Positions 13,628 through 33,191 of a DNA stretch of 35,814 nucleotides are shown here, piece by piece. Both the position numbers and the translations under genes were made by a program. The stretch comes from Vulcanimicrobiota bacterium. GTDB lineage: Bacteria > Vulcanimicrobiota > Xenobia > Xenobiales > JADMJV01. Where the stretch lies: NCBI GenBank assembly GCA_022842865.1, contig JALHOV010000006.1:1-35814 (forward strand), given 5' to 3'. Below the pieces are notes generated by a model that saw only the letters and a program-made list of their open reading frames with translations, was not told the origin of the DNA and did not search any database. Position 1 is the first letter of the stretch. Every line of letters starts with the position of its first letter.

Positions 13628-15153
13628 TGGCAGCTCGATCCGCGGTGAGCGCCACCCTGATCAGCTACCTGAGCTACGGTGTCGGTATCCTGTCCAGTGC
13701 GCTGCTCATCCCTCTCACCATTCAGGCCCTGGGGGACAGCCAGTTTGCCCTTTGGAGTCTGACTCTCTCGGGTCTGAGCCTGTTGTCCTTGTTGGAAGGG
13801 GGCCTGGCCACGGCCTGGATGCGCTTTGCCTCGGCAGCCCCCGATGGCGAACGCTTGCAGCGCGGGCTCACCACCATGTTGGGCACCTACCTGAGGGTGG
13901 TGGCCGTGGGACTGCTGGTGTTAACCGCAATCAGCTTTTTTTATCCCGCCTGGGCCGGCGCCCCGGCCGAAGTAGCCCGGCCCTTGCTGTGGATCCTGGG
14001 AGCCCGTCTCTTTTACGCCACCTTGCCGCTCACGCTCTTTCGGGTGCTCCTGCACGGCTTGCACCACACCGTGCCGGCCCAAATTTGGGCCACCTTCCAT
14101 CAACTTCTCTACGTCGGCCTGGCGGCCGCCTGGCTGACCCACTCCGGCGGAATCCTGGGGCTGGCCTGGCTCAATCTGGGAGTGGCCCTCTCGGAGAATC
14201 TAGGCTATGTCTGGATGGCCTATCGGCGCGTCCCGGGCCTTCGTCTATTCCCCTGGCAGCGCGACCTGCCCATGGCGCGAGAATTCCATGTCCAGGCGGC
14301 GGCGGGAGCGGTAGTGCAACTGGCCTCGCTGGTGCTGTTAAAAACCGACCCCATTTTGGTCAAAGCCGTGCTGCCCTTGCAGGCGGTCGCCTTGTATGCG
14401 GTGGCCCTGAAGGTGGCCGAGAACTACCTGATGTTCCTCAAGCAGTTTCTGCCCGTGCTCACCCCCCGCCTGGGCGCCGCCGCCGCGCGCCGTGACATGG
14501 ATGCCTTACGCCGCCTGATCATCCAGTCTTCTGGCTGGGCCACCGTCCCGGCCATGGCTCTGGGACTGCCCTTCTGGCTGGGAGCAGAGGGATTGCTGGA
14601 GCACTGGGTGGGTCCCAACTATGTGCCGGCCGCTCCGGCCTTAAAGATTTTGCTCTTGTCGGGACTGCTGTCTCTGCCCCAGATGGTGATTTCTTCGGCC
14701 CTGGCCATGTCAGGACTGCTGGCCGCCAACGCTCGGGCCGCTCTGCTGGCCACGCTGTTGAATCCCATCGCCAGTTTGCTCTGGGCCCGGGCGGTGGGCC
14801 TGCCCGGAATCGCCCTGGGCACCTTGACGGCCACCCTGGTGGTCGATTGCCTGGTGGTCTTTCGCTCGGGCTCGCGAATCTTTGAACTCAGCCTGTGGAG
14901 TTGGGCCAAAGCCTGGCTGCGCCTGCACCTCCCCGGCCTGCTGCTGGCGCTGCCCTTGTTGGCGTTGACTCGCCATTGGGGCGGCCTGCATCTGCTCAAC
15001 TGGTGCCTGTGGGCGGGGCTGGGGGCCTTGCTTTATGGGCTGGCGGTCTTGTTTGGCTTGCCCGCCAAAGAGCGCGCGCTTCTCAAAGACTTGCGCAAGC
15101 GAGGCGCCCCTGATGCCACCTCGTCGGCCAGTGCCGAGGCCACCCCGGCCTGA
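13627..15153 (+). CDS. Wzx-type polysaccharide flippase (MOP superfamily)
   Basis: The protein has 508 residues from an ATG whose first base is the last base of the previous stop (TGATG). It contains about 12-14 hydrophobic segments across its whole length, beginning ATLISYLSYGVGILSSALLI. It has a typical N-terminal PLTIQALGDSQFALWSL and a mid-protein EFHVQAAAGAVVQLASLVLL. These are the features of polysaccharide transporters that flip undecaprenyl-linked repeat units to the periplasm. The last 30 residues are polar (LLKDLRKRGAPDATSSASAE) and their coding sequence overlaps the end of the convergent polymerase gene by 121 bp. It ends the first operon of the locus. Confidence 0.88.
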   Translation: MAARSAVSATLISYLSYGVGILSSALLIPLTIQALGDSQFALWSLTLSGLSLLSLLEGGLATAWMRFASAAPDGERLQRGLTTMLGTYLRVVAVGLLVLTAISFFYPAWAGAPAEVARPLLWILGARLFYATLPLTLFRVLLHGLHHTVPAQIWATFHQLLYVGLAAAWLTHSGGILGLAWLNLGVALSENLGYVWMAYRRVPGLRLFPWQRDLPMAREFHVQAAAGAVVQLASLVLLKTDPILVKAVLPLQAVALYAVALKVAENYLMFLKQFLPVLTPRLGAAAARRDMDALRRLIIQSSGWATVPAMALGLPFWLGAEGLLEHWVGPNYVPAAPALKILLLSGLLSLPQMVISSALAMSGLLAANARAALLATLLNPIASLLWARAVGLPGIALGTLTATLVVDCLVVFRSGSRIFELSLWSWAKAWLRLHLPGLLLALPLLALTRHWGGLHLLNWCLWAGLGALLYGLAVLFGLPAKERALLKDLRKRGAPDATSSASAEATPA

Positions 15154-16397
15154 ATAGTGTAAAGATAAATGACCGGGGTCAGACGGAAGGCCCATTCTAA
15201 AAACCCGATCAAATAAAGAGCCTGAAAGCCAATGGGAAAGCCCAACAGGAGGGTGGCGGGCAATCCCCGTCCCTGGCGGCCCACCCACAGCGGCCGAATC
15301 CAGAAGCCCGCCCACACCAGCACAAAAAAAACCAGGCCCGGATAGCCCATCTCGGCGGCCGTCAGGCGATAGATGTGGTGAGCCACACCGGCCTGTTCCT
15401 CGTTGGCCATCACCTTAATGTGTCCGTTGTAGCGTTCCTCCGTGGTCAGCACGTAGGAAAAGCTGTTCAAGCCCACTCCAAAAAAGTTGTCCTTGGCCAT
15501 CAAGTCGGCGGCAATGTTAAATTCGGTGCGAGCCATTTCACTCTCTTCGGGGGCGGTCTCAAACCGGTTGATAATGGTGCCCAGCGCTTTCAGGCCGCCT
15601 AAAAACGCCAGTGTCATGATAGCCAGGGTGAGCAAGCGCACGCGCCGACTGGGAAAGCGCAGATTGGATAGCCCCACCACCATCAGCAGGCTCAGTCCAC
15701 ACAAAACCAGGCCGGCTCTGGATTGAGTGGCCAGCACGGCGAACATCAATCCCAGCGAGGCGGCAATTCCCCACAAAGACTTCCAGCGGGGCAAGCGAGG
15801 GTTACAACTGGCCCACAGGTAGAGGACCGGCAAAACCAGGATGACGTACATGGGAATGGTGTTGGAATGATCAAACGGCCCCTTGATCCGATACATACCG
15901 AACAGATACTTCTGCTTCAGGGCCAAAAAAGTCATCCAGGTGCCGATGCCCAGATAGGCGTGGGCCATATGTTCCATGGTCAACCCTGCGCGAAAACTGT
16001 TGGCGGCCACCCAATAGACAAAATAGAGCTTGAGCAGTTTGTAGAAGGTAAACCAGGCGTAGATGGGCACCGGCGCCTTCAGGGTGGCGATAAAACAGCA
16101 CAGACCGTATCCCAGCAAAGGCAGCGAATTGTAGGGAAACCATTTGACCCCTCGCTTGCTGGCCACCAGCGGAAAAACCGCCAGAAAGATCAAGTCGGTG
16201 AGGGTCACTTCGAAGCCCCGGTCGGGTCCGCGATAATCCTCCATGGAAATAAAGTGGATGCGGGTAGAATTGGTAACCATCGTCAAGAAGGTGGCCAGAG
16301 CCAGCAGCCAACCGAGGTAGCGTCGGTTGCTCTGGGCCAAAACAAACATGGCCGGGACCGCCACCACCGCAAATAGCGCAAAAATTGCGTATTTCAA
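15033..16397 (-). CDS. Wzy / O-antigen-ligase-like polysaccharide polymerase
   Basis: The protein has 454 residues from TTG 16397, preceded by GGAGG at 6-7 bases; the frame is open further upstream but without a better start. There are about ten membrane segments (first: YAIFALFAVVAVPAMFVLA). A large periplasmic loop carries the O-antigen-ligase/Wzy_C-type pattern: AVLATQSRAGLVLCGLSLLM before it, then NFFGVGLNSF and AGVAHHIYRLTAAEMGYPGL. Members polymerise or ligate lipid-linked glycans outside the inner membrane. It is the only minus-strand gene inside the locus, divergent from the GH9 gene (80-bp spacer) and overlapping the flippase tail-to-tail. Confidence 0.85.
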   Translation of the reverse strand: MKYAIFALFAVVAVPAMFVLAQSNRRYLGWLLALATFLTMVTNSTRIHFISMEDYRGPDRGFEVTLTDLIFLAVFPLVASKRGVKWFPYNSLPLLGYGLCCFIATLKAPVPIYAWFTFYKLLKLYFVYWVAANSFRAGLTMEHMAHAYLGIGTWMTFLALKQKYLFGMYRIKGPFDHSNTIPMYVILVLPVLYLWASCNPRLPRWKSLWGIAASLGLMFAVLATQSRAGLVLCGLSLLMVVGLSNLRFPSRRVRLLTLAIMTLAFLGGLKALGTIINRFETAPEESEMARTEFNIAADLMAKDNFFGVGLNSFSYVLTTEERYNGHIKVMANEEQAGVAHHIYRLTAAEMGYPGLVFFVLVWAGFWIRPLWVGRQGRGLPATLLLGFPIGFQALYLIGFLEWAFRLTPVIYLYTIQAGVASALADEVASGAPRLRKSLRSARSLAGKPNKTASP

Positions 16398-16477
16398 AGT
16401 GCGCCTCCATTCGGTCCGCCTGGATGCGGGCCTCTCTGGCGGGAAGAGTTTGGCGGGTCCAAACGAAGGGGCTCCCC

Positions 16478-18862
16478 GTGACAACCGGCATCGGCAAAAC
16501 AGGACTGCTGTTTTTGGTCGCCCTCTGGACCTCCGCCTGCCAGGCCCAGCCTCAGCCGGAAGCATTTCTCCAGCCTATTTCGGCCACGGTGCTGGAGGTG
16601 GAATTGCGCTCTCCGGCCGATGCACCCGCCCGCACCGAGCCCCTCGAGGTGCTGGTGGACGGGCGGCCCTGGGCGGGGCGCTCAGGAGTGCGGCGCCGGG
16701 TCAGTGAAGTGACCCAGGCTGGCCGAGCCACCCTGACCACCTGGCTCTTTTTTGAAGGCCAGGTTCCGCTCCGGGAGGGTCAGAAGCTGTCGCTCAAGGG
16801 CCCCCAATGGCACTTGCGGGGGCAATTTCACCAGCAGCGACCGGCCCAAGCGCTGCACCTCAACTTGCTGGGTTATGCGGCCACCGCCAGCAAGCGGGCC
16901 TGGGTCGGAGCGGATCTGGGTAGCCTGGGTCAACTCGCCGTGAACCCCCGGTCGAACTGCCAACTCCTCGACCCAAAAGGCCAAACGGTCTGGAAGGGAA
17001 GGCTACAGCCCGGTACAGATCGGGGTTGGCCCTGGCCCTCGCCCTATAGCCAGCTCTACTCGGTAGATTTCAGCGCCTTCCAGACCAGCGGAAGCTACCG
17101 CCTGGAGGTGGAGGGACTGGGTCAGTCGGCGCCCTTTCGCATCGGTCCGGAGCCTGCTCTAGACCTGGTGCGCACTCTGGCCCTGGGTTTGTATCATCAA
17201 CGCTGCGGAGCCCCCAACCAACTTCCCTACACGCGCTTCCTGCACCGGGCCTGTCACACGCGGCCCGCCGCCGTACCCCGGGCCCAGGACACCAACTACC
17301 TGCGCTTGTTGCTGCAAACGACGGGTCTTAAAAGTCTTCAGGAACTCCATTTTCCCTGGTCGGGAGTCGAACCGGTGGACGTTTCCGGGGGCCACCACGA
17401 CGCGGGGGACTACAGCAAGTATGTCATCAACAGCGCCCGCTTGATACACAGTTTGATGCTGGCGGTGGACCATTTCCCGCAGGCCGCCCGCCTCGATCAA
17501 CTGGGGTTACCCGAAAGCGGCGATGGCGTCAGCGACCTGCTCCAGGAAGCCTTGTTGGAAGCAGATTTCCTCAGCCGTATGCAAGACCGGGACGGCGGTT
17601 TTTCGTTTATGGTCTACCCGCAGACGCGTCGCTACGAAGACAACGTGCTGCCCGATCAGGGAGACGCCCAATTTGTCTATCCCAAAAACACGGCGGCCAC
17701 CGCCGCCTGTGTAGCGGCGCTGGCCCAGTGCGCCCAATCCCCGGCCCTGCGCAAACTCGATCCCGCCCGCGCTGCGCGCTACCTCAAACAGGCCCGCCAG
17801 GGCTGGAATTTTCTCGAGCAGGCCCGGCAGACCTATGCAGAGGGCTCAGCTTACCAAAAGATCACCCACTACGGAGACCGCTTTCAGGACCGCGATGAGT
17901 GCGCCTGGGCCGCGGCCGAACTGCTGCTGGCCAGCGGCGAAGCCAGCTATGCAAACTACCTGACCAGGCACTTTCGCCCCCAAGATCCGGCCACGCGTTT
18001 TTGGGGCTGGATGAGGCTTTGCGAGGGGTATGGTTGCGCTTTACGTCAGCTGGCCTTGGCGCAGCCGCTGCCCCAGCTGACGCCGGAATACCAGCGGGCG
18101 GTGCGCAGCGAAGTGCTGGGCTGGGCCGACGACCTGACCGAAGCCTCTCGGGGCTGCGCTTATGGGCTGGCCCTGCCCTTCCCCAGCAAACGGGCAGTGC
18201 GGGCCGGCTGGTTTTTTGCGACCGATCAGGCCTTCGATCTGCTGGTCGCTCAGCACATTCAGTATTCCCCCGAACGGCAACAGGCCTTGCAAAGCCAGCT
18301 GGACTATCTACTGGGGGCTAATCCCAATGACCGCTGTTACCTGACCGGATTTCCGTCGTCTCCCCGTCACATCGTCAGTCAATTCGCCCGCAACGACGAG
18401 CGCCAGTTGCCCCCCGGCGGTTTGCTGATCGGCAACATTCAGGAGGGCCACGCCGAAAGACGTTGGAGCCAACTCAGCCTTCCCCCCGACAACCAGACGG
18501 CCAGCGGCTACCCCCTGCTGCAGCGGTTTTGCGACGGATTTTACCTGCCCGGCGAAGCCACTGTGGACAACCAGGCCCGCGCTCTGGCCCTGGCGGCGGC
18601 CCTGAGCCCGCCCACTCCACCCTGGAAGCCCCAAGAACTGCGATTCAATCGAACCGCAAGCGGCGACTGGAGCGTGGAGGTCAGCGGAGCCAGTCTGATT
18701 TGGGAAGTCCCCGGAGAGGTGGGCCAGGGCCCGCTATTTCATCCTCGTTCCCGAGATTTTCCCTGGTTAGAAGTAGAAGCCCACTGGCCCGACGGCCGAC
18801 GGGCATTCGGGCGCTGGACCTCAAATGAAAATAGCCACCCGGCAGAGAAACCCCGCCCATGA
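16478..18862 (+). CDS. Family 9 glycoside hydrolase (endoglucanase-like), exported
   Basis: The protein has 794 residues from GTG 16478, with GAAGGGG about 5 bases upstream. Translation extended to 16385 would bury the signal peptide. The first ~24 residues form a signal sequence (TGLLFLVALWTSAC) with a possible but non-consensus lipobox at Cys21. Residues ~30-230 look like the Ig-like domain that precedes many GH9 catalytic domains. The catalytic domain shows VSGGHHDAGDYSKY, with Asp308 and Asp311 as the nucleophilic-water/base pair, and FYLPGEATVDNQA, with Glu693 as the acid. The His motif before it (SSPRHIVSQFARND) is degenerate compared with the classical one. It probably cleaves the beta-glucan-like backbone of the exported polymer during synthesis or release. 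It heads the second operon. Confidence 0.88.
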   Translation: MTTGIGKTGLLFLVALWTSACQAQPQPEAFLQPISATVLEVELRSPADAPARTEPLEVLVDGRPWAGRSGVRRRVSEVTQAGRATLTTWLFFEGQVPLREGQKLSLKGPQWHLRGQFHQQRPAQALHLNLLGYAATASKRAWVGADLGSLGQLAVNPRSNCQLLDPKGQTVWKGRLQPGTDRGWPWPSPYSQLYSVDFSAFQTSGSYRLEVEGLGQSAPFRIGPEPALDLVRTLALGLYHQRCGAPNQLPYTRFLHRACHTRPAAVPRAQDTNYLRLLLQTTGLKSLQELHFPWSGVEPVDVSGGHHDAGDYSKYVINSARLIHSLMLAVDHFPQAARLDQLGLPESGDGVSDLLQEALLEADFLSRMQDRDGGFSFMVYPQTRRYEDNVLPDQGDAQFVYPKNTAATAACVAALAQCAQSPALRKLDPARAARYLKQARQGWNFLEQARQTYAEGSAYQKITHYGDRFQDRDECAWAAAELLLASGEASYANYLTRHFRPQDPATRFWGWMRLCEGYGCALRQLALAQPLPQLTPEYQRAVRSEVLGWADDLTEASRGCAYGLALPFPSKRAVRAGWFFATDQAFDLLVAQHIQYSPERQQALQSQLDYLLGANPNDRCYLTGFPSSPRHIVSQFARNDERQLPPGGLLIGNIQEGHAERRWSQLSLPPDNQTASGYPLLQRFCDGFYLPGEATVDNQARALALAAALSPPTPPWKPQELRFNRTASGDWSVEVSGASLIWEVPGEVGQGPLFHPRSRDFPWLEVEAHWPDGRRAFGRWTSNENSHPAEKPRP

Positions 18863-22085: not shown

Positions 22086-23236
22086 GAATTCTGATTGTCT
22101 CCAACCTCTATCCCCCCGAAATTCAGGGCGGTTATGAGATCCTGTGTGCCCAGGTGGTAGGCTGGTTGCGCGCGCGAAACCACGAGGTGTTGGTGTTGAC
22201 CAGCTCGGGGTCCGAAAGCGCCGAGGAGATGCGTAATCTCCGCCTGTCCTCCCCATTCCCCGCTCCGGCCCGGCGCGGTCGAGTCCATCAGCTTCGGCTT
22301 CATCGCTTCAACTACAGAGCCACAGCTGAGGCCATCGCTCGGTTCCGTCCCGAACTGATCTTCATGTGGAGCCAGCTGCGCTTAGGAAGTGGACCGGCCC
22401 GCGCCGCCGAAGCCTCAGGGATTCCCGTTGTTTACACCTGGAACGACGATCATATTTTAGGCCTTGCCCCGGTGCAATGGGGCCTCACGCCGCGCCGACT
22501 CGTGGGCGCTCTCTCAGACCGAAGCTGGGCGCGAGCGGCCACCTGGAGCGGCCTAAAATTTCGCCGGGCCGTCACCATCAGCCACAAGCTGCGCGAAATT
22601 CTTCAGCGCGGCGGCTACCCGGGTGAGCTCCAGGTTGTTTATCAGGGCATCCGTCTGGAGGATTTTGGCTGCAAACAAGAGCCCGGTTCCATGGGAGCCC
22701 CGGGGCGACTGCTCTACGTGGGCCAACTTCACCACTACAAGGGGGTGCATACGCTGCTGGAAGCGCTCCCTCACTGTCCCGATTGGACCCTGACCATCGT
22801 GGGCGCCGGCAACCCGGATTATGTGCAAAAACTCAAGGAAAGCGCCAAACCGCTGGGGGAGCGCGTCTCCTTTTTAGGCCGCCTGCCCCACGCTCAACTG
22901 GCGCAAGTCTATCAAGAGCACGATGCCTTTGTTTTTCCTTCCATTTGGGACGAGCCCTACGGCCTGACCCACCTGGAAGCCATGGCCTCGGGACTTCCGT
23001 TGCTGGCCACCCTGCACGGCGGACACGGGGAGCACTTGCGCGACGGAGTCAACTGCCTGGGGTTTCTGAAAGGCTCGGCCGAGGAACTGGCGCAAGCACT
23101 GCGACGTCTTCAAAGCGACCCCGCTTTGGCCCGTCGCCTGGCCCTGCAGGGCCGAGAACTGGTGGTTCAAGAGTTAAATTTCGAGCGCTATGCGCGCGAG
23201 CTAGAAGAGGTGCTCGCATGCGCTTTGACTCCATGA
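22082..23236 (+). CDS. Family 4 glycosyltransferase (paralogue of 18859 gene)
   Basis: The protein has 384 residues, with the ATG in an ATGA overlap. It opens ILIVSNLYPPEIQGGYEILC, nearly matching the gene at 18859. It has LLYVGQLHHYKG in the donor domain and DEPYGLTHLEAMASG for E-x7-E. Similarity runs over the whole length, so the two genes flanking the Wzz gene most likely arose by duplication. It is probably a second sugar-adding step with a related donor or acceptor. Confidence 0.9.
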   Translation: MRILIVSNLYPPEIQGGYEILCAQVVGWLRARNHEVLVLTSSGSESAEEMRNLRLSSPFPAPARRGRVHQLRLHRFNYRATAEAIARFRPELIFMWSQLRLGSGPARAAEASGIPVVYTWNDDHILGLAPVQWGLTPRRLVGALSDRSWARAATWSGLKFRRAVTISHKLREILQRGGYPGELQVVYQGIRLEDFGCKQEPGSMGAPGRLLYVGQLHHYKGVHTLLEALPHCPDWTLTIVGAGNPDYVQKLKESAKPLGERVSFLGRLPHAQLAQVYQEHDAFVFPSIWDEPYGLTHLEAMASGLPLLATLHGGHGEHLRDGVNCLGFLKGSAEELAQALRRLQSDPALARRLALQGRELVVQELNFERYARELEEVLACALTP

Positions 23237-24459
23237 AAATCGTGCATATTCCCCGCCGTTTTGCGCTCGACCACTGGGGCGGGACCGAATCAGTGCTGCT
23301 GTCCTATTGCGATCATCTGACCCGGCTGGGTCAGAGTCAGAAGATTTTCACCAGCCGGGCTCTGCAAAGCGATCCGGTGACCCAGCTCAAGGGCGTCGAG
23401 ATCCGTCGTTTTGATTATTTTTATCCCTACTTTGGACTCAGTCCGACCAAAAAGGACTTGCTTGACCGCAAAGGCGGCAACCTCTTTTCCTGGTCTTTGG
23501 CCTGGGCGCTGGCCTGGGAACCCGGCCTGAACTTGATCCATCTGCACACCGGTAAACGTCTGGGAGGTCTGGCTCGCTGGGTAGCCCGGCTGCGTGGCAT
23601 TCCCTACGTGGTCTCGTTGCACGGCGGTGTGTACGATGTGCCCAGTGCCGAAGCCGACAGCTGGACCGAGCCCACCCAGGGCCATTTTGAGTGGGGTAAA
23701 GCGCTGGGCTGGCTGGTAGGTTCGCGACGGGTCTTAGACGATGCCGCCCTGGTTTTGTGCTTAGGCCGCAAAGAGCAGCAGCTCTTGCAGCAGAAGCATC
23801 CGCACACCCGGATTGAAGTGTTTCCCAACGGCGTCGACGCCGAAGTCTTCGCCACCGGTCAGCGGGACCACTGGAGGAACCTGTGCCGCTTAGCTCCTCA
23901 AGATCGTCTGCTGCTGTGTGTGGGTCGTATCGATCCGCAGAAAAATCAGGAATTTGCGCTGCGCCTGCTGGAGCAGCTGCCGGCCCACTATCACCTGCTG
24001 CTGCTGGGCTCGGCCACCAATCAGGAATGCCTGCAGCGCCTGCAACGCCTCAGCCAAGAATTGGGAATCGAGCAGCGGGTTCACGGCTGGCGGGCCTCCA
24101 GCGGGCAGGAACTGGTGGACGCTTACCACGGCTGCGACCTTTTTCTTTTGCCTTCGCTGCACGAGCCCTTTGGAATCGTCGTGTTGGAAGCCTGGGCGGC
24201 CGGTCGCCCGGTGCTGGCCAGCGCCGTGGGCGGTTTGTGTGACCTGATTTCCGAGGGAGAAACCGGCTGGCTCTATCCTTCCGGGCAACTGGAGGAAGCT
24301 CGCCGCAAAGTGCTGGCCCTGGAAGATCAGCCCGAACTGGTGGCCGCCGTGGAGGCTCGTTGCCGGCAGCTTTGCCAGCAAAAATACGCCTGGTCGGCGC
24401 TGGCCCAAAAACTGATCGAGCTCTATCGGGAGGTTTTGCATGCGCATTCTGGTCGTTAA
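23218..24459 (+). CDS. Family 4 glycosyltransferase
   Basis: The protein has 413 residues from ATG 23218, chosen because AGAGG lies 7-8 bases upstream. An in-frame ATG at 23233 forms an ATGA overlap with the previous stop and is an equally common arrangement; it would remove five residues. Motifs: WGGTESVLLSYCDHL at the acceptor side, VVSLHGGVYD, LLLCVGRIDPQKN, and HEPFGIVVLEAWAAG for E-x7-E. The donor is unknown. It is part of the run of GT4 genes that builds the repeat unit. Confidence 0.88.
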   Translation: MRFDSMKIVHIPRRFALDHWGGTESVLLSYCDHLTRLGQSQKIFTSRALQSDPVTQLKGVEIRRFDYFYPYFGLSPTKKDLLDRKGGNLFSWSLAWALAWEPGLNLIHLHTGKRLGGLARWVARLRGIPYVVSLHGGVYDVPSAEADSWTEPTQGHFEWGKALGWLVGSRRVLDDAALVLCLGRKEQQLLQQKHPHTRIEVFPNGVDAEVFATGQRDHWRNLCRLAPQDRLLLCVGRIDPQKNQEFALRLLEQLPAHYHLLLLGSATNQECLQRLQRLSQELGIEQRVHGWRASSGQELVDAYHGCDLFLLPSLHEPFGIVVLEAWAAGRPVLASAVGGLCDLISEGETGWLYPSGQLEEARRKVLALEDQPELVAAVEARCRQLCQQKYAWSALAQKLIELYREVLHAHSGR

Positions 24460-25561
24460 CGAATACGCCGGAAAGCTGGGCGGAGTGGAGCAATACCTGG
24501 CCAACATCGTGCCCGCCTTGCGCCAGCGGGGACATCAAGTGGCGCTGCTTTACGAGCGACTGGCCCCCCGCGAGGGCCCGGAGTTTCTGGGCCTGTTTGA
24601 CCACCATTATCAGGACCTGGATGCAGCCCTGGCCGACTTTGAGGCCGAGGTGCTTTTTTTGCACCGGGTCTCTACCATCCGCCCCTATTTGGAGCTCGCC
24701 CAACGGCGCGTGCGCTACGTGCACGACCACGATTTGTGCTGTCCGCGCCGGCACAAATATTATGTCTGGAATGGCCAGGCCTGCCAACACAAAGCCGACT
24801 GGCGCTGCTGGCTGGATCTGGCCTTTGTGCGCCGAGACCGAGCCAGGCCGCTGGGCCTGGCCTGGGTTTCGCTGGCCGACCACCAGCAGGAACTGAAGGC
24901 TCACCAAAAGCTGGATGCCCTGCTGGTGGGCTCGCGCGCCATGCAAAACGAGCTGGCCATGAATGGCCTGACTCGAGCTCAAGTGGTGCCTCCCTTGATT
25001 CCCCTGGAGGAGCACGCCCCCGCCCCGGCCAGCCAGCCCCGCATTCTTTATGTCGGGCAGCTCATTCGCGGTAAGGGCGTCGATCTTTTGCTGTCCGCGC
25101 TGGAAGGTTTGCCCGGCGAGTGGAGCGCCTGCCTGGTGGGTGATGGCAACGCCCGGCCGGCTCTCGAGAAGCAAATCCTGCGCAAGGGCCTGACGGAACG
25201 GGTGCAGCTGGCGGGCTGGGTCTCGGCCGAGGAGCTTCATCAACATTACCAAGAAGCGCAACTGGTGGTGGTTCCGTCGAGATGGCCAGAACCTTTTGGA
25301 ATGGTGGGACTGGAGGCCATGAACTGGAGCAAACCGGTAGTCGGCTTTGACATCGGCGGCATTCCCGACTGGCTGGAACACGGCAAAACCGGCTGGCTGG
25401 TGCCGGCCGGCGACTGTCGCGCCCTGGGGGCGGCCATCCAGCATCTTTTGGAACGCCCGGAACTTTGCCAGCAACTGGGCCAACAGGCTCAGATCCGGCT
25501 GCGCGAGTCGTTCGGATTTGACCCCATGATCACTCGCCTGGAAGGGGTGTTGCGTGGTTGA
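24440..25561 (+). CDS. Family 4 glycosyltransferase
   Basis: The protein has 373 residues; GGGAGG precedes the ATG by about 7 bases, and the start overlaps the previous gene by 20 bases. It opens RILVVNEYAGKLGGVEQYL, has ILYVGQLIRGKGVDLLL in the donor domain, and ends with PEPFGMVGLEAMNWSKPVVG. A Cys/His-rich patch at ~95-120 (VHDHDLCCPRRHKYY, then CQHKADWRC) is seen in some GT4 relatives. Its function in the pathway is inferred from context only. Confidence 0.88.
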   Translation: MRILVVNEYAGKLGGVEQYLANIVPALRQRGHQVALLYERLAPREGPEFLGLFDHHYQDLDAALADFEAEVLFLHRVSTIRPYLELAQRRVRYVHDHDLCCPRRHKYYVWNGQACQHKADWRCWLDLAFVRRDRARPLGLAWVSLADHQQELKAHQKLDALLVGSRAMQNELAMNGLTRAQVVPPLIPLEEHAPAPASQPRILYVGQLIRGKGVDLLLSALEGLPGEWSACLVGDGNARPALEKQILRKGLTERVQLAGWVSAEELHQHYQEAQLVVVPSRWPEPFGMVGLEAMNWSKPVVGFDIGGIPDWLEHGKTGWLVPAGDCRALGAAIQHLLERPELCQQLGQQAQIRLRESFGFDPMITRLEGVLRG

Positions 25562-26696
25562 GTTTGGCGTCAGCACCTATGGCGCGGACGGAGGCCGTTC
25601 CGGCATCGGCTCCTACTTGAGCGAAATTTTACGCGTATGGGAGCGACAGGGCAAAACCCGCCGGTTGGAGTTGCTGCTCGACCCCGAAGAGGTCGATTAT
25701 TGGAGAGGAGTGGCTCCTTCGGCTCGGCAGCGCGTGCAGCCGCGCGGTTTGCGACGCAACGTGCCGGGAGTTCTCTGGCACCTGCTGATGTTGCCCTGGA
25801 TCGCCTGGAGACAGGGTTATCGTCGCTTGTTTTTGTGCGCCTCCAATCGACGCTCCCCCTGGTGGTGTCCCTGTCCGATGGTGGGCACAGTTCACGATCT
25901 GGCCGGTCTGCGCATGCCCGGTAAATACAGCCGCTGGCATCATCTTTACCTGAGCAAACTGCTTCCTCGCTTGATTCGGCGCCTGCGCGTGGTGCTCACG
26001 GTCAGTCAGGCCAGTGCGCGCGACATTGAGGAACTGGTCGGCATTCCGGCCGAGCGGGTGGTGGTCACCCCGTTGGCGGCCGATCTACAGCGCTTTTCCC
26101 CCGGGCCTCCCGCAGAAGCGCGCCAAAGACTGCAGGCAGATTACTCTTTGCCCGAACACTACGTGCTTTACCTGGCCCGCCTGGAGCATCCCGGCAAAGG
26201 TCATGTGCCTTTAATTGAAGCCTGGGACCGTCTGCTGGACGAGGTCGAAGTGAAAGCAGATCTGGTGTTGGCCGGCAGTCCCTGGGACGGCTATGCCGAG
26301 ATCGAGGCCGCCCTGGCCAAAGCCCGTCATCGCGAACGAATTCGTCTGCTGGGATTTGTCCAGCATGCCCACATTCCCGATCTCTACCGGGCCGCCGACG
26401 CGGTGGTCTTCCCCAGTTTTTACGAGGGTTTTGGCCTGCCCGTGCTGGAGGCCATGGGCTGCGGGCGCGCGCTGGCGTGTTCCAATCGCGCCTCCTTGCC
26501 GGAAGTGGCTGGCTCGGCCGCCCTGCTCTTTGACCCGGCCCAACCGACCGAGATCCGGGAGGCTCTGCAGCAACTTCTGCAAAACCCCGACCTGAAAGCA
26601 CGGTTGGAAGTGGCCGGGCTGCAACGCGCCCAATGTTTCTCCTGGGAAAAAACCGCCGATCAAACATGGACTGCTCTCACGAGCGAAAGGGAGTAA
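25554..26696 (+). CDS. Family 4 glycosyltransferase
   Basis: The protein has 380 residues from a GTG that overlaps the previous gene by 8 bases. It shows GGRSGIGSYLSEIL at the N-terminus, VGTVHDLAGLRMPG, VLTVSQASARDIEEL, YLARLEHPGKGH, and YEGFGLPVLEAMGCGRAL for the donor site. This resembles mannosyl- or rhamnosyl-type GT4 enzymes of the WbdB/MtfB style, but the donor is not certain. It is the last of the five GT4 genes, four bases upstream of the initiating transferase. Confidence 0.9.
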   Translation: MVEFGVSTYGADGGRSGIGSYLSEILRVWERQGKTRRLELLLDPEEVDYWRGVAPSARQRVQPRGLRRNVPGVLWHLLMLPWIAWRQGYRRLFLCASNRRSPWWCPCPMVGTVHDLAGLRMPGKYSRWHHLYLSKLLPRLIRRLRVVLTVSQASARDIEELVGIPAERVVVTPLAADLQRFSPGPPAEARQRLQADYSLPEHYVLYLARLEHPGKGHVPLIEAWDRLLDEVEVKADLVLAGSPWDGYAEIEAALAKARHRERIRLLGFVQHAHIPDLYRAADAVVFPSFYEGFGLPVLEAMGCGRALACSNRASLPEVAGSAALLFDPAQPTEIREALQQLLQNPDLKARLEVAGLQRAQCFSWEKTADQTWTALTSERE

Positions 26697-26699
26697 CCA

Positions 26700-27419
26700 A
26701 TGTCACGCTTAGAAATGGTCGAAGAACTCTATCGGCGCTATGGCGATCCCCAAATGGATCGGCAGCGACGAGTACGCTTTTTGTGGAAACGCTACGCCTG
26801 GGTGACCGTCATCGGCGGCGCTCGCCTGCTCAAACGGGCCGTTGATGTGAGCGCCTCAGGGTTGGGCATTCTGGTATTGAGTCCACTCTTTCTGCTGGTA
26901 GCCCTGGCCATCAAAGCCACCGATCGGGGCCCGGTGCTCTTCTGGCAAAGTCGGGTCGGACAATGGGGGCGTGAATTTCCCTTCCCCAAATTTCGCTCCA
27001 TGGTGGTCAACGCCGAAGCGCTCAAAGACCAACTGCTGCAACAGAACCAGCACGGGGAGAGCGTCACTTTTAAGATGAAAAAGGACCCCCGCATCACCTG
27101 GATCGGTCGTTTGATTCGACGCACCAGCATTGATGAGTTGCCACAACTCTGGTGCATCTTGCGCGGGGATATGTCGCTGGTGGGCCCCCGTCCCCCGGTC
27201 CCGCGCGAAGTCGCCGTCTACACTTTAAAGGACCGCCGACGCCTTGACGTCATTCCCGGGCTCACCTGCATCTGGCAGGTGGAGGGCCGTGGTGACGTTC
27301 CCTTTGACCAACAGGTGGAGATGGACCTGGCCTATATCGAAAGCCAATCGCTCTGGTTTGACATCAAACTGCTCTTGAAGACGGTTCCGGCCGTGCTCAC
27401 CGGTAAGGGAGCTTACTAA
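26700..27419 (+). CDS. Initiating phosphoglycosyl transferase (WbaP/PglC superfamily)
   Basis: The protein has 239 residues with an AAGGGAG site 7 bases upstream. It has the monotopic PGT core: a re-entrant hydrophobic helix (~50-70, SASGLGILVLSPLFLLVALA), DRGPVLFWQSRVG, FPKFRSM, the catalytic Asp145-Glu146 in TSIDELPQL, RGDMSLVGPRPP, IPGLTCIWQV and the closing DIKLLLKTV. These enzymes transfer a sugar-1-phosphate from a nucleotide sugar to undecaprenyl phosphate and start the repeat unit. It lacks the long N-terminal domain of full-size WbaP. The complete motif set is in contrast to the two following genes. Confidence 0.92.
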   Translation: MSRLEMVEELYRRYGDPQMDRQRRVRFLWKRYAWVTVIGGARLLKRAVDVSASGLGILVLSPLFLLVALAIKATDRGPVLFWQSRVGQWGREFPFPKFRSMVVNAEALKDQLLQQNQHGESVTFKMKKDPRITWIGRLIRRTSIDELPQLWCILRGDMSLVGPRPPVPREVAVYTLKDRRRLDVIPGLTCIWQVEGRGDVPFDQQVEMDLAYIESQSLWFDIKLLLKTVPAVLTGKGAY

Positions 27420-27420
27420 C

Positions 27421-28608
27421 TTGGGCCTGCTGGGGACTTCCTGGTGGCAGCGGTTGGGAGCCATTCCCTGCCTGCCCTTGCTGGCCTGGGAAGTGCTGCG
27501 CGGCCGCACCGCCCGCCGCCAACTGGTTTGCTGGGGTCCGTCGCAGTTGCTGCTGTGGATGCCGGACGATCAGGGGCCTTTGGGATTTTTCGCCCTTCTC
27601 AACCTGCTGGCGGGCACCATGGCCTGGGTGGGGCCCTCGCTGAGCTTGCGCGAACAAGCAGCCCAAGCCGATTCTCGCTGGTGCGATTTTTTGCCGGGGG
27701 TCTTCTCCTTGAGCGATCTGCGCCAGCGCACCGGCATCGCCTTTTCCGACCGAGCCGAAATCGAGGATCAATACGCCGCCACCCGGGGCCTCAAAAAAGA
27801 CCTGGCGCTGGTCGTGCGCTCCCTGCTGGTGAGCTGGCTGCCCCCGGCACCTCCGGTTTGTCCTGAGCGTTTGTCTCTCTTTGGCTTCAATCTGGCCAAT
27901 CCCACCATGGCGGAAGCCCTGGATCAGCTGGTGCAGTGGACGCAGGCTCCCCAGCCACGACTGGTGGGTTTCTTAAACGCTCACTGCATCAACGTCTCCT
28001 ATCGCAACTGCGAATACCGGGAGACCTTGCGCAACTGTGATTGGTTGCTGTCCGACGGCTTCGGCCTGCGCCTGGCCGGCTTGCTGCTGCAGCAACCCAT
28101 TCGTGACAACGTCAACGGTACCGATCTGTTTCCCCCTTTGTGCGACCGCCTTCAGGCCAACGCCACTCGGGTCTTTCTTTTTGGGGCCAAACCCGGAGTG
28201 GCCGAGGCGGTGGCCCAATGGATGGCCGTCCACGCACCCGGCCTGGAAGTAGTGGGTGTCCAACACGGCTTCCTGGCGGCCGACCAGCAGGAGCCATTCC
28301 TGCAGCGACTACAGCAGTGCCGACCCCAACTCACCCTGGTGGCGCTGGGGGTTCCTGCCCAGGAGCTGTGGCTGCAACGCAATCGAGAGAAACTTCCGCC
28401 CGGACTGTATCTGGCCGTGGGCGGGTTGTTCGATTTTTACAGCGGCCAGACCCCGCGAGCCCCCCAGTGGCTTCGGGAGATTGGCCTGGAGTGGGCCTAT
28501 CGTCTCTGGCAAGAACCTGGTCGCATGTGGAAGCGCTACCTGGTGGGAAATTTCGTGTTCGCCTTCCACGCCTGGAAAGAGTATAGAAAGCAGGGGATCC
28601 ATCGATGA
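27421..28608 (+). CDS. WecG/TagA/CpsF glycosyltransferase with degenerate PGT module at N-terminus
   Basis: The protein has 395 residues from TTG 27421, two bases after the PGT stop. Residues ~155-395 are a WecG/TagA (GT26) domain: FLNAHCINVSYRN, LLSDGFGLRLAG, NGTDLFPPL, FLFGAKPG and LGVPAQELWLQ. Such enzymes usually add the second sugar to the undecaprenyl-linked one. Residues ~50-140 align with the C-terminal half of the PGT gene upstream: NLLAGTMAWVGPS matches its ILRGDMSLVGPRP, FLPGVFSLSDLRQ matches its IPGLTCIWQV, and AEIEDQYAATRGLKKDLALV matches its closing helix. The Asp-Glu pair is replaced by Leu-Gly. It is a fusion of a dead PGT half and an intact glycosyltransferase. Confidence 0.82.
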   Translation: MGLLGTSWWQRLGAIPCLPLLAWEVLRGRTARRQLVCWGPSQLLLWMPDDQGPLGFFALLNLLAGTMAWVGPSLSLREQAAQADSRWCDFLPGVFSLSDLRQRTGIAFSDRAEIEDQYAATRGLKKDLALVVRSLLVSWLPPAPPVCPERLSLFGFNLANPTMAEALDQLVQWTQAPQPRLVGFLNAHCINVSYRNCEYRETLRNCDWLLSDGFGLRLAGLLLQQPIRDNVNGTDLFPPLCDRLQANATRVFLFGAKPGVAEAVAQWMAVHAPGLEVVGVQHGFLAADQQEPFLQRLQQCRPQLTLVALGVPAQELWLQRNREKLPPGLYLAVGGLFDFYSGQTPRAPQWLREIGLEWAYRLWQEPGRMWKRYLVGNFVFAFHAWKEYRKQGIHR

Positions 28609-30005
28609 ATTTCGAGTCCTATCCAGTCATCATCACGGCCTTGGGTCTGCGCGGCAATGGTCAGGAAGAAGAGCGGGCCTGGGACCTGATGCCGGTGGGC
28701 GATCGGCCCTGGATTCAACATCAGTTGGAGCACCTGATCCGCTGTGGTCAGAAGGATCTCACCTTTATTCTTTACCATGAGCCGGCCGCCATCCAGAAGC
28801 TGCTGGGCGACGGCGAACGTTGGGGAGCGACCATCCGCTACCGCCTGGCTACCGACCCGAAACAACCCCTGGCCTGCCTGCGCGCGGTCGATCTGGAAGG
28901 GCCGGTGGTGGTCGGCTCAAGCCTGGTGCTGGCCCCGCCCGAGCTTTTTCAGGCGGACTCAGCGCCCGCCTTGCTGAGCCTGCAGCAGCGGCCCCTACCC
29001 TGGCTGCGGCTGACTCCGGAACAATTTCGCGAGTCCGTTCGCGAGGACTGGCCTGCTCTTTTGGAGCGCCATCAGCCCGCTCAGTCCAGTTCCTGGGAGG
29101 AATACCAACTTCTCGACGGTCAAGACCTGCTGGCCCGCAATCAGGACTTCCTGACCAAGCACTGGCCGGTGCCACCGTTGGCCCGCGAAATCGAACCGGG
29201 TTGCTGGGTTGGCCGCGACGTGGTGCTGCATCCCAGCGTTCAAGTTACCCCTCCCTGTTACATCGGGTCCCACTGCCGGGTGGGCCGCTTAAGCCAGGTC
29301 GGTCCAGGAGCGGTGATTGGTGCCGGCTCGATTTTGGACGACAAGTGCGTGGTGGTCCATTCGGTGGTCACCCCCGGAACCTATCTGGGAGCCGGTCTAG
29401 AATTGCAGGAAATGACCGCCGGGCCCGGCTTTTTGCGGATGGCCGATGGCGACCCCATCCCCGTCCCTGACCCCAGTCTGCTGGGCTACAGTCGTCCCGC
29501 TTTCCGCTGGCGCCAACGAATCTGGCAGCGCACCCTGGCCTGGTGCTGCCTGCTGCTCTTTGCTCCCCTGCGCTGGCTCCGTTCGAAACCCGTGCAAACC
29601 GAGGCCATGAGTTTCGTGAGCGCCGGCCTGGCCGAGGACCCGGGCAGCTGGAAAGAGCAACACCTGGTCGGAAGCTTAACCCAGGTGACCAGCCTGCGCC
29701 AGCACTTTTGGCAGGTCTTTTTACCGGCGCTGCCCGCTTGCGCTCAGGGAAAGTTGGCGCTGGTGGGCTGCACGCCCCTGAATTCAGATAGCCTCAACTC
29801 CTGTCCAGCCTACCGTCGTCGTCGCTACCTTCGTCGCGGCCCCGGCCTGGTCAGCGAGGCGCTGGTGCAGTTTGGGCCCAGAGCGGACGAAGAAGAACGG
29901 GAACTGGCCGAAGCTCTCCAGGCTGCCCAGGGCGGAGGAGTCTACCCGCTGGCTCTGCTGGGCAAGTATCTGCTGGGGGTTCTAGCGGATGCGCCTCATC
30001 CTTAG
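28605..30005 (+). CDS. Degenerate sugar nucleotidyltransferase - left-handed helix - PGT-like fusion
   Basis: The protein has 466 residues; the ATG overlaps the previous stop (ATGA). Residues 1-190 resemble a GT-A sugar-1-phosphate nucleotidyltransferase (MPVGDRPWIQHQLEHLIRCG) but lack the G-x-G-T-R loop and the usual Lys. Residues ~200-275 are hexapeptide left-handed beta-helix repeats (GRDVVLHPSVQVTPPCYIGS, VGPGAVIGAGSILDD). Residues ~300-465 include a hydrophobic segment (TLAWCCLLLFAPLRWL) and a PGT-like tail: KLALVGCTPL, RRGPGLVSEALVQFG and a closing hydrophobic helix. At the catalytic Asp-Glu position the sequence reads Val-Phe. It is probably not an enzyme of either class and may act as a scaffold, a sensor of nucleotide sugar, or a partner of the active PGT. 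Confidence 0.7.
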   Translation: MNFESYPVIITALGLRGNGQEEERAWDLMPVGDRPWIQHQLEHLIRCGQKDLTFILYHEPAAIQKLLGDGERWGATIRYRLATDPKQPLACLRAVDLEGPVVVGSSLVLAPPELFQADSAPALLSLQQRPLPWLRLTPEQFRESVREDWPALLERHQPAQSSSWEEYQLLDGQDLLARNQDFLTKHWPVPPLAREIEPGCWVGRDVVLHPSVQVTPPCYIGSHCRVGRLSQVGPGAVIGAGSILDDKCVVVHSVVTPGTYLGAGLELQEMTAGPGFLRMADGDPIPVPDPSLLGYSRPAFRWRQRIWQRTLAWCCLLLFAPLRWLRSKPVQTEAMSFVSAGLAEDPGSWKEQHLVGSLTQVTSLRQHFWQVFLPALPACAQGKLALVGCTPLNSDSLNSCPAYRRRRYLRRGPGLVSEALVQFGPRADEEERELAEALQAAQGGGVYPLALLGKYLLGVLADAPHP

Positions 30006-31542
30006 CCTGGCCCTGGTATTTTGCCTGGGCCAACCGTGCTTCCCCCAACCCGTTCCCCATGAACCGAGGCCGGCCGCATCCGCCGGCTCTCGCTGGGAGG
30101 CGGATGAGCACGATAGCTACCTGACCTGGAACAAAGATCTGGAACCGAGCAACGCCTTGCGCCTGCATCTGGACGAATCCCTCGCTTTTGGTCTGCAGCA
30201 CAACCTGACGCTTTGGGTGGCCGAAGTGGAGCCGTCCCTGGCCAAAACCGAAGAGACGCTGGCGGCCGGGCTCTTTGACCCGCTCTTTCGCTCTCTGGTC
30301 TCGCGCGGAGGACTGTCCCAGCTCTTTGCTACCGATATTAACCAAATCCTCGGCTACAACCAGCAACTTTTGACGCGTGCCGGACTGGAACAAACCACCT
30401 CGATGGGCGTTCGCTACAGCGTCGAGTACCGCACCGGCACGGACAGTTTTCTGCAGAGCGCGTTGGGGCTGGGTGGCATCAGCAGACGAACTACCAGCAC
30501 CTTTTTTAATCTGGTGGTGCCGCTTTTGCGTGGCGCCGGTCGGGATGCCAACGAGGGGCCTTTGCGCGCCGCCGAGTTTCGCACCCGCAGAGCCACCTCT
30601 TTGCTTTCGGAGCGAACCCTGGAAACGGCCGCCCTGATCCAGAAGACCTATTGGGAGCTGGTGGCCAAGCGCAAGCAAATGGGCATACAGCTGCGAGCCC
30701 AATCCCACGCGCGGCGCTTGCGGACTTACCTGGAAATTGAGATTGCCGAAGGACGAGCAGCCCCGTATGAAGCCTTCGAAGCCGAACAGAATCTAGGTCT
30801 GATCGAAATCGAACTGGAGGATCGCCGGCGCGGTCTGATTTTGCAGGAGCAATATCTGCTGCGCGTCATGGGCCTGGACCCCAACCTGGGCAGGGTAGTG
30901 CCCCTGGACGACTTGAGCGCCCCCGACGAGCAAAGTTCGGATCTGCAGGCCTGGGTGGAAAAGGCTCTGGCCGGTCGTCCGGAAATCCGAGCGGCCCGCC
31001 TGGAAATCGAGGCCCTGCAAGCGGAAAGTGTCACCTTGACCAATCGCTTGCTGCCTCAGTTAGATCTGATCGGCGATTACCGCACCAGCACCGGCAGCAA
31101 CTTGTTGGGCACCGATGCCTGGCAGGTTTCGCTGCAATTGAGCCTGCCGATTGGCAATCACCAGGCACTGGCCCGGGCTGAGCGCAAGAACCTGGAACTG
31201 AAACAGGCGCAGCGGATCGTCGAGCGCTCCCTGCAAGACATCGTCAACGACACCAGCCTGGCCTACAAATCCCTCGGATTCCACCAAGAGAGATGGCGAA
31301 GAGCGCAAATGACTCGCAGTTACGCGCTGTTGCGCAGTCAGGCCGAAGGGGAACGCTTTTTGGCCGGTTTTACCCCCGCCCACCGGGTGGTCTTTGCTCA
31401 ACAATATGAAGTCCTGTCCCTTCAGAAGGAAGCCGAGGCCAAGCTCGACTACACGCTCTCCCGAGTCGACCTGGAGAGAGCGGTGGGGGCTGCCCTTCCC
31501 GAACTGCTGGAGAAAGCTCGCCGAACGGGAGAAGGCCCTTGA
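29989..31542 (+). CDS. TolC-family outer-membrane channel protein
   Basis: The protein has 517 residues, overlapping the previous gene by 17 bases. A signal peptide (MRLILSLALVFCLGQPCFPQ) is followed by two repeats of long amphipathic helices, typical of the outer-membrane efflux protein family: LHLDESLAFGLQHNLTLWV, LIQKTYWELVAKRKQMGIQL, RPEIRAARLEIEALQAESV and VSLQLSLPIGNHQALARAER. It forms or resembles a trimeric channel across outer membrane and periplasm. No Wza/OPX-type channel gene is visible, so it may be the export route for the polysaccharide. Its place between the assembly genes and the regulator supports co-expression. Confidence 0.88.
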   Translation: MRLILSLALVFCLGQPCFPQPVPHEPRPAASAGSRWEADEHDSYLTWNKDLEPSNALRLHLDESLAFGLQHNLTLWVAEVEPSLAKTEETLAAGLFDPLFRSLVSRGGLSQLFATDINQILGYNQQLLTRAGLEQTTSMGVRYSVEYRTGTDSFLQSALGLGGISRRTTSTFFNLVVPLLRGAGRDANEGPLRAAEFRTRRATSLLSERTLETAALIQKTYWELVAKRKQMGIQLRAQSHARRLRTYLEIEIAEGRAAPYEAFEAEQNLGLIEIELEDRRRGLILQEQYLLRVMGLDPNLGRVVPLDDLSAPDEQSSDLQAWVEKALAGRPEIRAARLEIEALQAESVTLTNRLLPQLDLIGDYRTSTGSNLLGTDAWQVSLQLSLPIGNHQALARAERKNLELKQAQRIVERSLQDIVNDTSLAYKSLGFHQERWRRAQMTRSYALLRSQAEGERFLAGFTPAHRVVFAQQYEVLSLQKEAEAKLDYTLSRVDLERAVGAALPELLEKARRTGEGP

Positions 31543-33191
31543 GCAATAACCTCCGGGTGATGGTGGTCGACGATGATTTGCTGTTACTCAAGATGTTGCG
31601 ACGCCAGGTGGAAAGACTGGGCTTTGTCTGTGAAACCTGCTCCAGCTCGGAAGAGGCGCTGGAAAAACGCCAGGAACGGCCCTATCGCATCTTGCTTTCC
31701 GATTGGGAACTACCGGGCTTGTCCGGTCTGGAACTGTGTCAACGGGTGCGCGCCGAAGAACAATATACCTATGTGCTGCTGCTGACCGGCACGGAAGGAC
31801 CCGAGGCCAAAATCCAGGCCCTGGACGCAGGGGCCGACGCCTTCCTGGCCAAGCCCGCCAGCAGTGCCGATCTGCGCGCTCACCTGCAAATCGCCCAGCG
31901 CATCCTGGATCTGCAGTTTTCGCTCGAGCGCCGCCTGCAGGAGCTGGAGGGAGCCAACCGCTACCTGGTTGAGCAGGTCGAGTTGCGCCAGCAGGCTGAG
32001 GCGAGTCGAGACCAGATTACCCGTTCGGCACGGGAGTTCGAGCTGCGCGTGGCCGCCCACGTGCAACAACGGTTGCTGGTCTCGTCCGCTCCCGCCGATC
32101 CCTTCCTGGACATCGCCACCTACAATCGACCCTCGCGAGACGTGGACGGAGACTTCTTGGATTTCTTTCGCCAACGGAGCGGTCTGGACTGGGTGGTGGG
32201 CGACGTTATGGGCAAAGGCGTGCCGGCGGCTCTGCTGGGCGCCGGACTCAAAACGCAGCTCTTACGATTGCTGGCCGAGCATCGAGCTGGCAGTCTCGAC
32301 TCCGTCATCACCCAGCTCAATCGAAGGACCTGTGAGGACCTGGTCAGCCTGGACAGTTTTGTCACACTTTTTTATGCCCGCTTTGACCTGACCACCAATT
32401 CGCTGGAGTTTGTTGACGCCGGGCACACCAAACCGCTGGTCTATTCGTCGCGGCTGGGCGCCACCTCGGAGCTGGAGGGTCCGAACTGCCCGCTCGGCTT
32501 CACCCCCTTCGAAGTCTATCAGGGAGGCCAGTTGGTGCTGAGCCGAGGCGACCGAATCGTTTTTTATTCCGACGGCCTGACCGAGGCCACCAATGCTTCG
32601 GGAGACCAGTGGGGCCTGGAAGCCTTCAAAGCGTCCTTCGAACGCTCTCCCCACGGCAGCGCCAAGGATTGCCTGGAATACATTCTGGCGGAACATCAAG
32701 CTTTTGTGCACGATCCCAAAGAAAGCGACGACCTGAGCTTAATCGTCGTGCAGGTCTCGGATTTGCCCGAACCAGGGGCGCTCAGGGTGTCCGTTTTACC
32801 GTTTGCCAGCGACCTGGCTCGTCTGGAAGAGATTCGGGCGTTTGTCTCGGAGGAAGTCTCCCAGGGTTCTTCTCGAGAAGCCGAGGAGATGTGGTTGTCT
32901 CAATTGCAGCTGGCGGTCAGTGAGCTGGCCTCGAATATCATTCGCCATGCTTACGCCGGCAAACCAGGTCAATGCCTGTTCTTAATGGTTTCGCTCTTCG
33001 CAGAGGAGGTGGTGATTCGGCTCTACCATTCCGGCCAACCACTTCCTTTGGAAAAGCTGCAGCCGCTCGAACTGAAATCACCGCAGGAAAGTGGAATGGG
33101 GATGTATATCACCCAGCAGGTCACCGACCGTCTGGCGGTGGGCCAGGAACGCTCTTTCCATTGGATTGAATTTGCCAAGAAAATTCCTTAA
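31539..33191 (+). CDS. REC - PP2C (SpoIIE) phosphatase - HATPase regulator
   Basis: The protein has 550 residues from a TTG that overlaps the TolC stop (TTGA), with GGGAGAAGG upstream. The receiver domain (1-125) has Asp11-13, phospho-acceptor Asp55 in LLSDWELPG, Thr83 and Lys105. A coiled linker follows (~130-180). The SpoIIE-type PP2C domain (~185-405) has VDGDFLDFF, VVGDVMGKGVPAALL, FVDAGHTKPL, YSDGLTEATN and SDDLSLIVV, so its metal ligands look intact. The RsbW-like HATPase domain (~415-550) has an N-box (SELASNIIRHAY) and ESGMGMYITQQ. Its G1 box reads YHSGQP, with Ser where Asp is expected. Phosphorylation of the receiver probably switches the dephosphorylation of a STAS protein, most simply the one at 10308. 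Confidence 0.9.
   Translation: MSNNLRVMVVDDDLLLLKMLRRQVERLGFVCETCSSSEEALEKRQERPYRILLSDWELPGLSGLELCQRVRAEEQYTYVLLLTGTEGPEAKIQALDAGADAFLAKPASSADLRAHLQIAQRILDLQFSLERRLQELEGANRYLVEQVELRQQAEASRDQITRSAREFELRVAAHVQQRLLVSSAPADPFLDIATYNRPSRDVDGDFLDFFRQRSGLDWVVGDVMGKGVPAALLGAGLKTQLLRLLAEHRAGSLDSVITQLNRRTCEDLVSLDSFVTLFYARFDLTTNSLEFVDAGHTKPLVYSSRLGATSELEGPNCPLGFTPFEVYQGGQLVLSRGDRIVFYSDGLTEATNASGDQWGLEAFKASFERSPHGSAKDCLEYILAEHQAFVHDPKESDDLSLIVVQVSDLPEPGALRVSVLPFASDLARLEEIRAFVSEEVSQGSSREAEEMWLSQLQLAVSELASNIIRHAYAGKPGQCLFLMVSLFAEEVVIRLYHSGQPLPLEKLQPLELKSPQESGMGMYITQQVTDRLAVGQERSFHWIEFAKKIP

Follow-up and report, generated by a model that had tools for sequence, protein, structure and literature searches.

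Predicted non-catalytic phosphoglycosyl transferase domains accompany a live initiating enzyme in a Vulcanimicrobiota exopolysaccharide locus and in other bacterial phyla

Three consecutive genes of a Vulcanimicrobiota bacterium (assembly GCA_022842865.1, contig JALHOV010000006.1, positions 1 to 35,814, hereafter the window) carry modules related to phosphoglycosyl transferases (PGTs), and several described systems come close to them. The monotopic PGT superfamily (PF02397; PglC, WbaP; Sm-, Bi- and Lg-PGTs) has the same reentrant helix, scaffold and motif positions as the modules of genes 2 and 3, whose family profiles match PglC over the full domain. In contrast to these enzymes, the two modules are without the catalytic Asp-Glu pair and have a shortened active-site stretch, and each belongs to a larger protein, with a WecG domain in one case and a nucleotidyltransferase-helix scaffold in the other; the Bi-PGTs of the literature are fusions to a PGT catalytic domain (PMC10942596). 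With the WecG/TagA/CpsF family (TagA, 7mpk) gene 2 shares the full glycosyltransferase domain and the catalytic Asp, but TagA lacks a PGT-like domain at its N-terminus and uses its C-terminal appendage for membrane binding (PMC6493773). Gene 3 combines a nucleotidyltransferase domain with a left-handed helix like proteins of the GMPPA/eIF2B type, and the loss of its signature loop recalls the non-catalytic GMPPA; it differs from them in being bacterial, in lying in an exopolysaccharide operon, in its C-terminal pseudo-PGT and in that no catalytic partner was identified. The initiation of exopolysaccharide (EPS) synthesis in Myxococcus xanthus, with the PGT EpsZ, a single-domain response regulator and the BY pseudokinase EcpK, likewise involves an exopolysaccharide pathway, a direct-contact PGT partner and a pseudoenzyme (PMC12802240). 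There, however, a tyrosine pseudokinase takes the part of the pseudoenzyme and a response regulator that of the PGT partner, and neither is a pseudo-PGT.

In line with a sequence-only reading of this DNA, only the first of the three genes was found to hold the catalytic pair (Asp145-Glu146, against Leu54-Gly55 in gene 2 and Val371-Phe372 in gene 3). As the best reading, with moderate confidence, we propose that the three genes form a priming module for a Wzx/Wzy-type exopolysaccharide, in which the dead PGT domains would anchor or dock the module at the inner membrane. The enzymes are of known kinds; recurrent dead PGT domains and a double-pseudoenzyme scaffold were not encountered in the open literature searched, and neither was any description of pseudo-PGTs or of WecG fused to PGTs. 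Pfam and NCBIfam hold no name for either pseudo-PGT domain. A single base separates the stop of gene 1 from the start codon of gene 2, and genes 2 and 3 overlap by four bases. Their features are:

26700-27419, plus strand: gene 1 (P0001), putative live small monotopic PGT, 239 amino acids
26832-27398, plus strand: PGT domain of gene 1 (PF02397)
27132-27137, plus strand: predicted catalytic Asp145-Glu146 of gene 1, in TSIDELPQL
27421-28608, plus strand: gene 2 (P0002), pseudo-PGT and WecG, 395 amino acids, TTG start
27421-27858, plus strand: pseudo-PGT domain of gene 2, P0002 residues 1-146 (PF02397, 3.4e-5; family profile; hhalign)
27865-28551, plus strand: WecG/TagA/CpsF glycosyltransferase domain of gene 2 (PF03808, 1.5e-55)
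28605-30005, plus strand: gene 3 (P0003), nucleotidyltransferase-like domain, beta-helix and pseudo-PGT, 466 amino acids
28605-28994, plus strand: degenerate nucleotidyltransferase-like domain of gene 3, residues 1-130 (NTP_transferase 0.0075; Arch_glmU 8e-10)
29169-29474, plus strand: left-handed beta-helix (hexapeptide) of gene 3, residues about 189-290 (Hexapep 9.1e-9; strands in the model)
29481-30002, plus strand: pseudo-PGT domain of gene 3, residues 293-466 (family profile to PglC; hhalign; model)

Gene 1 matches PF02397 over its full length (E 3e-64) and, compared by sequence with PDB entries, WbaP (30us, 2e-48) and PglC (8e37, 1.4e-26). With a whole-domain PF02397 match, the Asp-Glu dyad and the KFRSM and VGPRP motifs, P0001 is predicted to be a live monotopic PGT.

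Homologues of genes 2 and 3 were collected by a WecG-based scan of genome contigs and by whole-genome searches. A profile built from 25 gene 2 homologues matched PglC (8e37) with an E-value of 1.6e-17 at positions 3-158, and the corresponding profile of 31 gene 3 homologues did so with 1.6e-14 at positions 304-475. When the two families, hereafter pseudo-PGT2 and pseudo-PGT3, were compared with 50 live PGTs by hhalign, values of 99.8% and 98.5% were obtained, respectively, and the pseudo-PGT3 profile recovered PGTs in 16 of 16 whole genomes. Given these profile matches, the hhalign results and the 16 genomes, PGT homology is secure for both dead families. In a merged alignment, the catalytic Asp was present in all 50 live enzymes and in none of the 25 pseudo-PGT2 or 31 pseudo-PGT3 domains, and the catalytic Glu in 50/50, 1/25 and 0/31. 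The reentrant-helix proline, on the other hand, was retained in 24/25 pseudo-PGT2 and 30/31 pseudo-PGT3 domains. Between this proline and the Glu position live enzymes have 83-85 residues, pseudo-PGT2 36-63 and pseudo-PGT3 50-68; the stretch before the catalytic site is some 15-50 residues shorter in dead than in live domains. Sixteen more pseudo-PGT2 sequences from independent loci lack the catalytic pair as well. Genes 2 and 3 thus each carry a predicted non-catalytic member of the monotopic PGT superfamily.

A regular expression for 'DE' picked out several dead domains as possible carriers of the pair. In L187 and L188 the match lies past the GPRP motif and off the catalytic site, and L138 is dead in the alignment, so these candidates were rejected; the dead domain of L108 was flagged too, by the regular expression only and outside the alignment. 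It is very unlikely that the pseudo-PGTs are alive and perform a different transfer reaction with other residues. They do retain the PG turn and the Gly in both the KGDM and the VGPRP motif, and the GPRP arginine is kept in 14/25 pseudo-PGT2 domains. However, this arginine is found in only 5/31 pseudo-PGT3 domains, the Asp nucleophile is missing in 56/56 domains with many different residues in its place, and the active-site stretch is shortened.

In gene 2, residues 59-136 align to positions 94-175 of the Bac_transf profile (E 3.4e-5, 23.9 bits, below the cut-off of 27), and this sub-threshold match was recovered in a genome-wide search as well. The C-terminal half of a PGT had been recognised here from the letters alone; a PGT module is present, but it is not merely a half, since the reentrant-helix Pro19 is retained and it is the intervening stretch ahead of the active site that is shortened and partly missing. 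The AlphaFold model shows the N-terminus as one unbroken helix of low confidence. The C-terminal domain has the PF03808 match, the catalytic Asp and the C-terminal region of the WecG/TagA/CpsF family. It matches TagA 7mpk by sequence (1.9e-38), with Asp212 aligned to the catalytic TagA Asp65, and by structure (Foldseek template-modelling score 0.95 of the target). The WecG domain is intact.

Gene 3 had been described as ending in a PGT-like tail. The tail is a PGT relative, but the protein is more than that, for a degenerate nucleotidyltransferase domain and a beta-helix precede it. The front of the protein can be aligned to sugar nucleotidyltransferases, but the GxGTR signature loop is absent from gene 3 and from its homologues with a nucleotidyltransferase-like domain, and Pfam gave no direct match for the last 170 residues. 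As the loop is gone and the tail is a pseudo-PGT, gene 3 seems to be built from a pair of dead enzymes with a beta-helix linker. Its AlphaFold model contains a helix-break-helix (300-318/320-325) at the expected, retained reentrant-helix proline, Pro321. The two AlphaFold models (mean predicted local distance difference test scores of 81 and 86) have moderate confidence in both PGT-like regions, but the whole-chain Foldseek top 50 of the two genes listed TagA or nucleotidyltransferases and no PGT among them. The fold comparison is thus weaker than the sequence evidence, and the structural check proposed from the letters alone is answered by half. One gene 3 homologue (L006:1-2056) lacks the nucleotidyltransferase part and abuts, on the opposite strand, a BY-kinase-like tail without its front, which reads like a rearrangement or an assembly join.

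The architecture of gene 3 also bears on another explanation, namely that it is a regulator whose dead nucleotidyltransferase binds a nucleotide sugar and whose pseudo-PGT relays feedback to the live PGT, much as GMPPA acts on GMPPB. We regard this as unlikely, although it is compatible with docking or plain anchoring. A pseudo-nucleotidyltransferase followed by a beta-helix is the layout of GMPPA, and Foldseek places tlr0611 first and GMPPA/GMPPB next. GMPPA itself, a paralogue without catalytic activity, regulates GMPPB and binds GDP-mannose (PMC11228364), and in Myxococcus xanthus a protein controls the initiating PGT through direct contact (PMC12802240). But among the module's neighbours no catalytic nucleotidyltransferase was noted that could be its partner, and the pseudo-PGT of gene 2 would be left unexplained.

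A maximum-likelihood tree of 80 domains, whose long branches limit fine placement, put the live type on one side of a branch with 100/100 support and split off pseudo-PGT3 at 100/99. Pseudo-PGT2 falls between the two, as one clade or more than one. Both dead domains of the window group with foreign dead domains of the same type, apart from their own live PGT. Dead and live PGT domains are old, separate lineages. For close pairs, the ratios of nonsynonymous to synonymous substitution (dN/dS) were 0.03-0.15 for live PGTs, 0.05-0.37 for pseudo-PGT2 and 0.06-0.40 for pseudo-PGT3. Saturated and mis-scored pairs were excluded, among them the pseudo-PGT2 values for L092/L095, L097/L111, L105/L108 and L127/L138, where a live PGT had been scored by the pseudo-PGT2 profile. 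These ratios point to clear purifying selection on the dead domains, weaker than that on the live enzyme. The view that dead copies are kept in frame near a live PGT is upheld by this selection and by their recurrence in many genomes. The duplication that had been invoked to explain them needs a change: with live PGTs and pseudo-PGT3 separated at 100/100 and 100/99 they are not recent duplicates of neighbouring gene 1, and the tree rules out a recent duplication within this genome. Accordingly, although PGT-like modules do stand in three consecutive genes, the idea that gene 1 was recently duplicated on the spot and its copies decayed without function is almost certainly wrong, given the high support for the split between live and dead, the cross-phylum presence and dN/dS well below 1.

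In the first locus sample, which was seeded by WecG, Acidobacteriota, Pseudomonadota and Myxococcota have the complete combination of a live PGT, a pseudo-PGT2-WecG protein and gene 3 with its pseudo-PGT. The full set of Myxococcota has pseudo-PGT2, WecG and PGT as a single chain. Sets with one dead domain were found in Armatimonadota, Planctomycetota, Lentisphaerota, Actinomycetota, Spirochaetota and Cloacimonadota. Nine other bacterial phyla have at least one of the two dead domains near the same partners. Since this sample had been chosen by WecG, a second one was drawn by the pseudo-PGT3 domain alone. The domain was detected in 4 of 121 genomes of one family and 18 of 151 genomes of one order, in a single copy each. 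All of the 19 new loci that were read from this search have a pseudo-PGT2-WecG gene upstream, and 14 have a live PGT (in one case as a pseudo-PGT2-WecG-PGT fusion). Within the window's own phylum, the gene 3 tail was seen in only one other genome. A genome-contig scan with a two-sequence alignment of the tail, whose patterns are ill-suited to distant relatives, returned nothing, and plasmid searches gave only ordinary nucleotidyltransferases or nothing. Such scattered presence suggests that the module is a horizontally moved accessory cluster.

For the proposed priming module, the enzyme families suggest two reactions. Gene 1 would load undecaprenyl phosphate with a phosphosugar taken from a nucleotide sugar, and the WecG domain of gene 2 would attach the next sugar. 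In genes 2 and 3 the PGT domains are predicted pseudoenzymes: the Asp-Glu pair is gone, along with some of the active-site stretch, and what they retain is the reentrant membrane helix together with the scaffold of the PGT C-terminus. With this helix they would most likely keep WecG and the scaffold of gene 3 (a dead nucleotidyltransferase and a beta-helix) on the inner leaflet, and they would dock both beside the live PGT; the lipid-linked sugar would be handed directly to WecG and then to the GT4 enzymes. More tentatively, the pseudo-PGTs may represent a widespread, unnamed class of scaffolds in many phyla that contact the live PGT and channel the lipid-linked sugar, building a membrane priming complex for exopolysaccharides from PGT, WecG and a scaffold of two dead enzymes linked by a beta-helix.

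TagA is active only when bound to the membrane (PMC6493773), and an anchor for WecG therefore makes sense. A rival explanation is that the pseudo-PGTs are plain membrane anchors, whose reentrant helix and amphipathic scaffold hold WecG and gene 3 at the inner leaflet without specific contact to the live PGT. The dependence of WecG/TagA enzymes on membrane association (PMC6493773) argues for it, as does the reentrant-helix proline in 54/56 dead domains whose catalytic positions vary freely. We nevertheless consider it rather unlikely: one helix would suffice as an anchor, yet the C-terminal PGT scaffold is held under selection, and at seven loci (L078, L080, L083, L085, L093, L110 and L199) pseudo-PGT2, WecG and a live PGT form one chain, in which a second anchor would be superfluous. 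Docking beside the live PGT fits these one-chain fusions. It also fits 11 loci where WecG is joined directly to a live PGT and pseudo-PGT2 is missing, as expected if pseudo-PGT2 brings WecG and PGT together.

Several observations weigh against such docking. In the remaining 5/19 loci of the second sample a membrane-protein gene occupies the place of the live PGT and no PGT is nearby. At seven loci pseudo-PGT2 and a WecG-PGT fusion coexist, and the two are thus not strictly exclusive of each other. Spirochaetota retain gene 3 without pseudo-PGT2, and L077, L079 and L082 retain the front of gene 3 without pseudo-PGT3. Finally, small PGTs are reported to be monomeric, and in WbaP it is the accessory domains, not the PGT core, that hold the dimer together (PMC10942596), so that a contact between PGT and pseudo-PGT is without direct precedent. 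Further one-chain links between pathway enzymes were observed as WecG-GT4 fusions, the GT4 part resembling window gene 25554 in L122, L140 and L153 (by reading) and gene 24440 in L118.

A conserved set in which the initiating enzyme itself has become a part for docking or anchoring would offer a direct approach to how the first Wzx/Wzy enzymes are organised at the membrane and to the commitment of scarce undecaprenyl phosphate. Its components are small, naturally form one polypeptide in places and occur in cultivated bacteria, for example Methylovulum psychrotolerans and Thiohalocapsa halophila. For annotation, a weak Bac_transf match before WecG, or an unannotated tail after a hexapeptide protein, is not necessarily a working PGT.

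The module is preceded by GT4 glycosyltransferase genes, and the window holds further candidate polysaccharide genes:

25554-26696, plus strand: nearest of three upstream GT4 glycosyltransferases (Pfam)
24440-25561 and about 23215-24459: two further upstream GT4 glycosyltransferases
13573-15153: flippase-like protein (from reading of the sequence)
15033-16565, minus strand: polymerase-like protein (from reading of the sequence)

Three GT4s like those of the window accompany the set in several phyla, and the order GT4-GT4-GT4-PGT-WecG-gene 3 is kept in four Spirochaetota loci (L092, L105, L114 and L128). The mechanical start of the open reading frame 22783-24459 lies too far upstream; GT4 similarity begins at about 23215-23280, and the true start is probably close to there. 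As a Wzz domain is present alongside the flippase-like and polymerase-like proteins, the window is taken as a Wzx/Wzy exopolysaccharide locus.

A PF01663 phosphodiesterase-family protein with an adjoining GT2-like protein, and a GH9 protein, are encoded at 10642-12614 and 16385-18862. Because such genes recur around the module in Spirochaetota and others, the conserved locus exceeds three genes. At 31539-33191 lies a response regulator-SpoIIE phosphatase-HATPase protein; similar ones near the module in L077, L081, L086, L087, L097 and L123 make a conserved switch possible.

An intergenic repeat of about 127 bases (3117-3243) gave no Rfam match. Its copies, of roughly 76-98% identity, are spread over some 30 contigs of this genome, where C51, C176 and C382 carry copies next to each other, and are also present in congeneric genomes. 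We rejected assembly contamination as the origin of the contig on these grounds: with its repeat recurring genome-wide and in congeners, the contig is most likely native.

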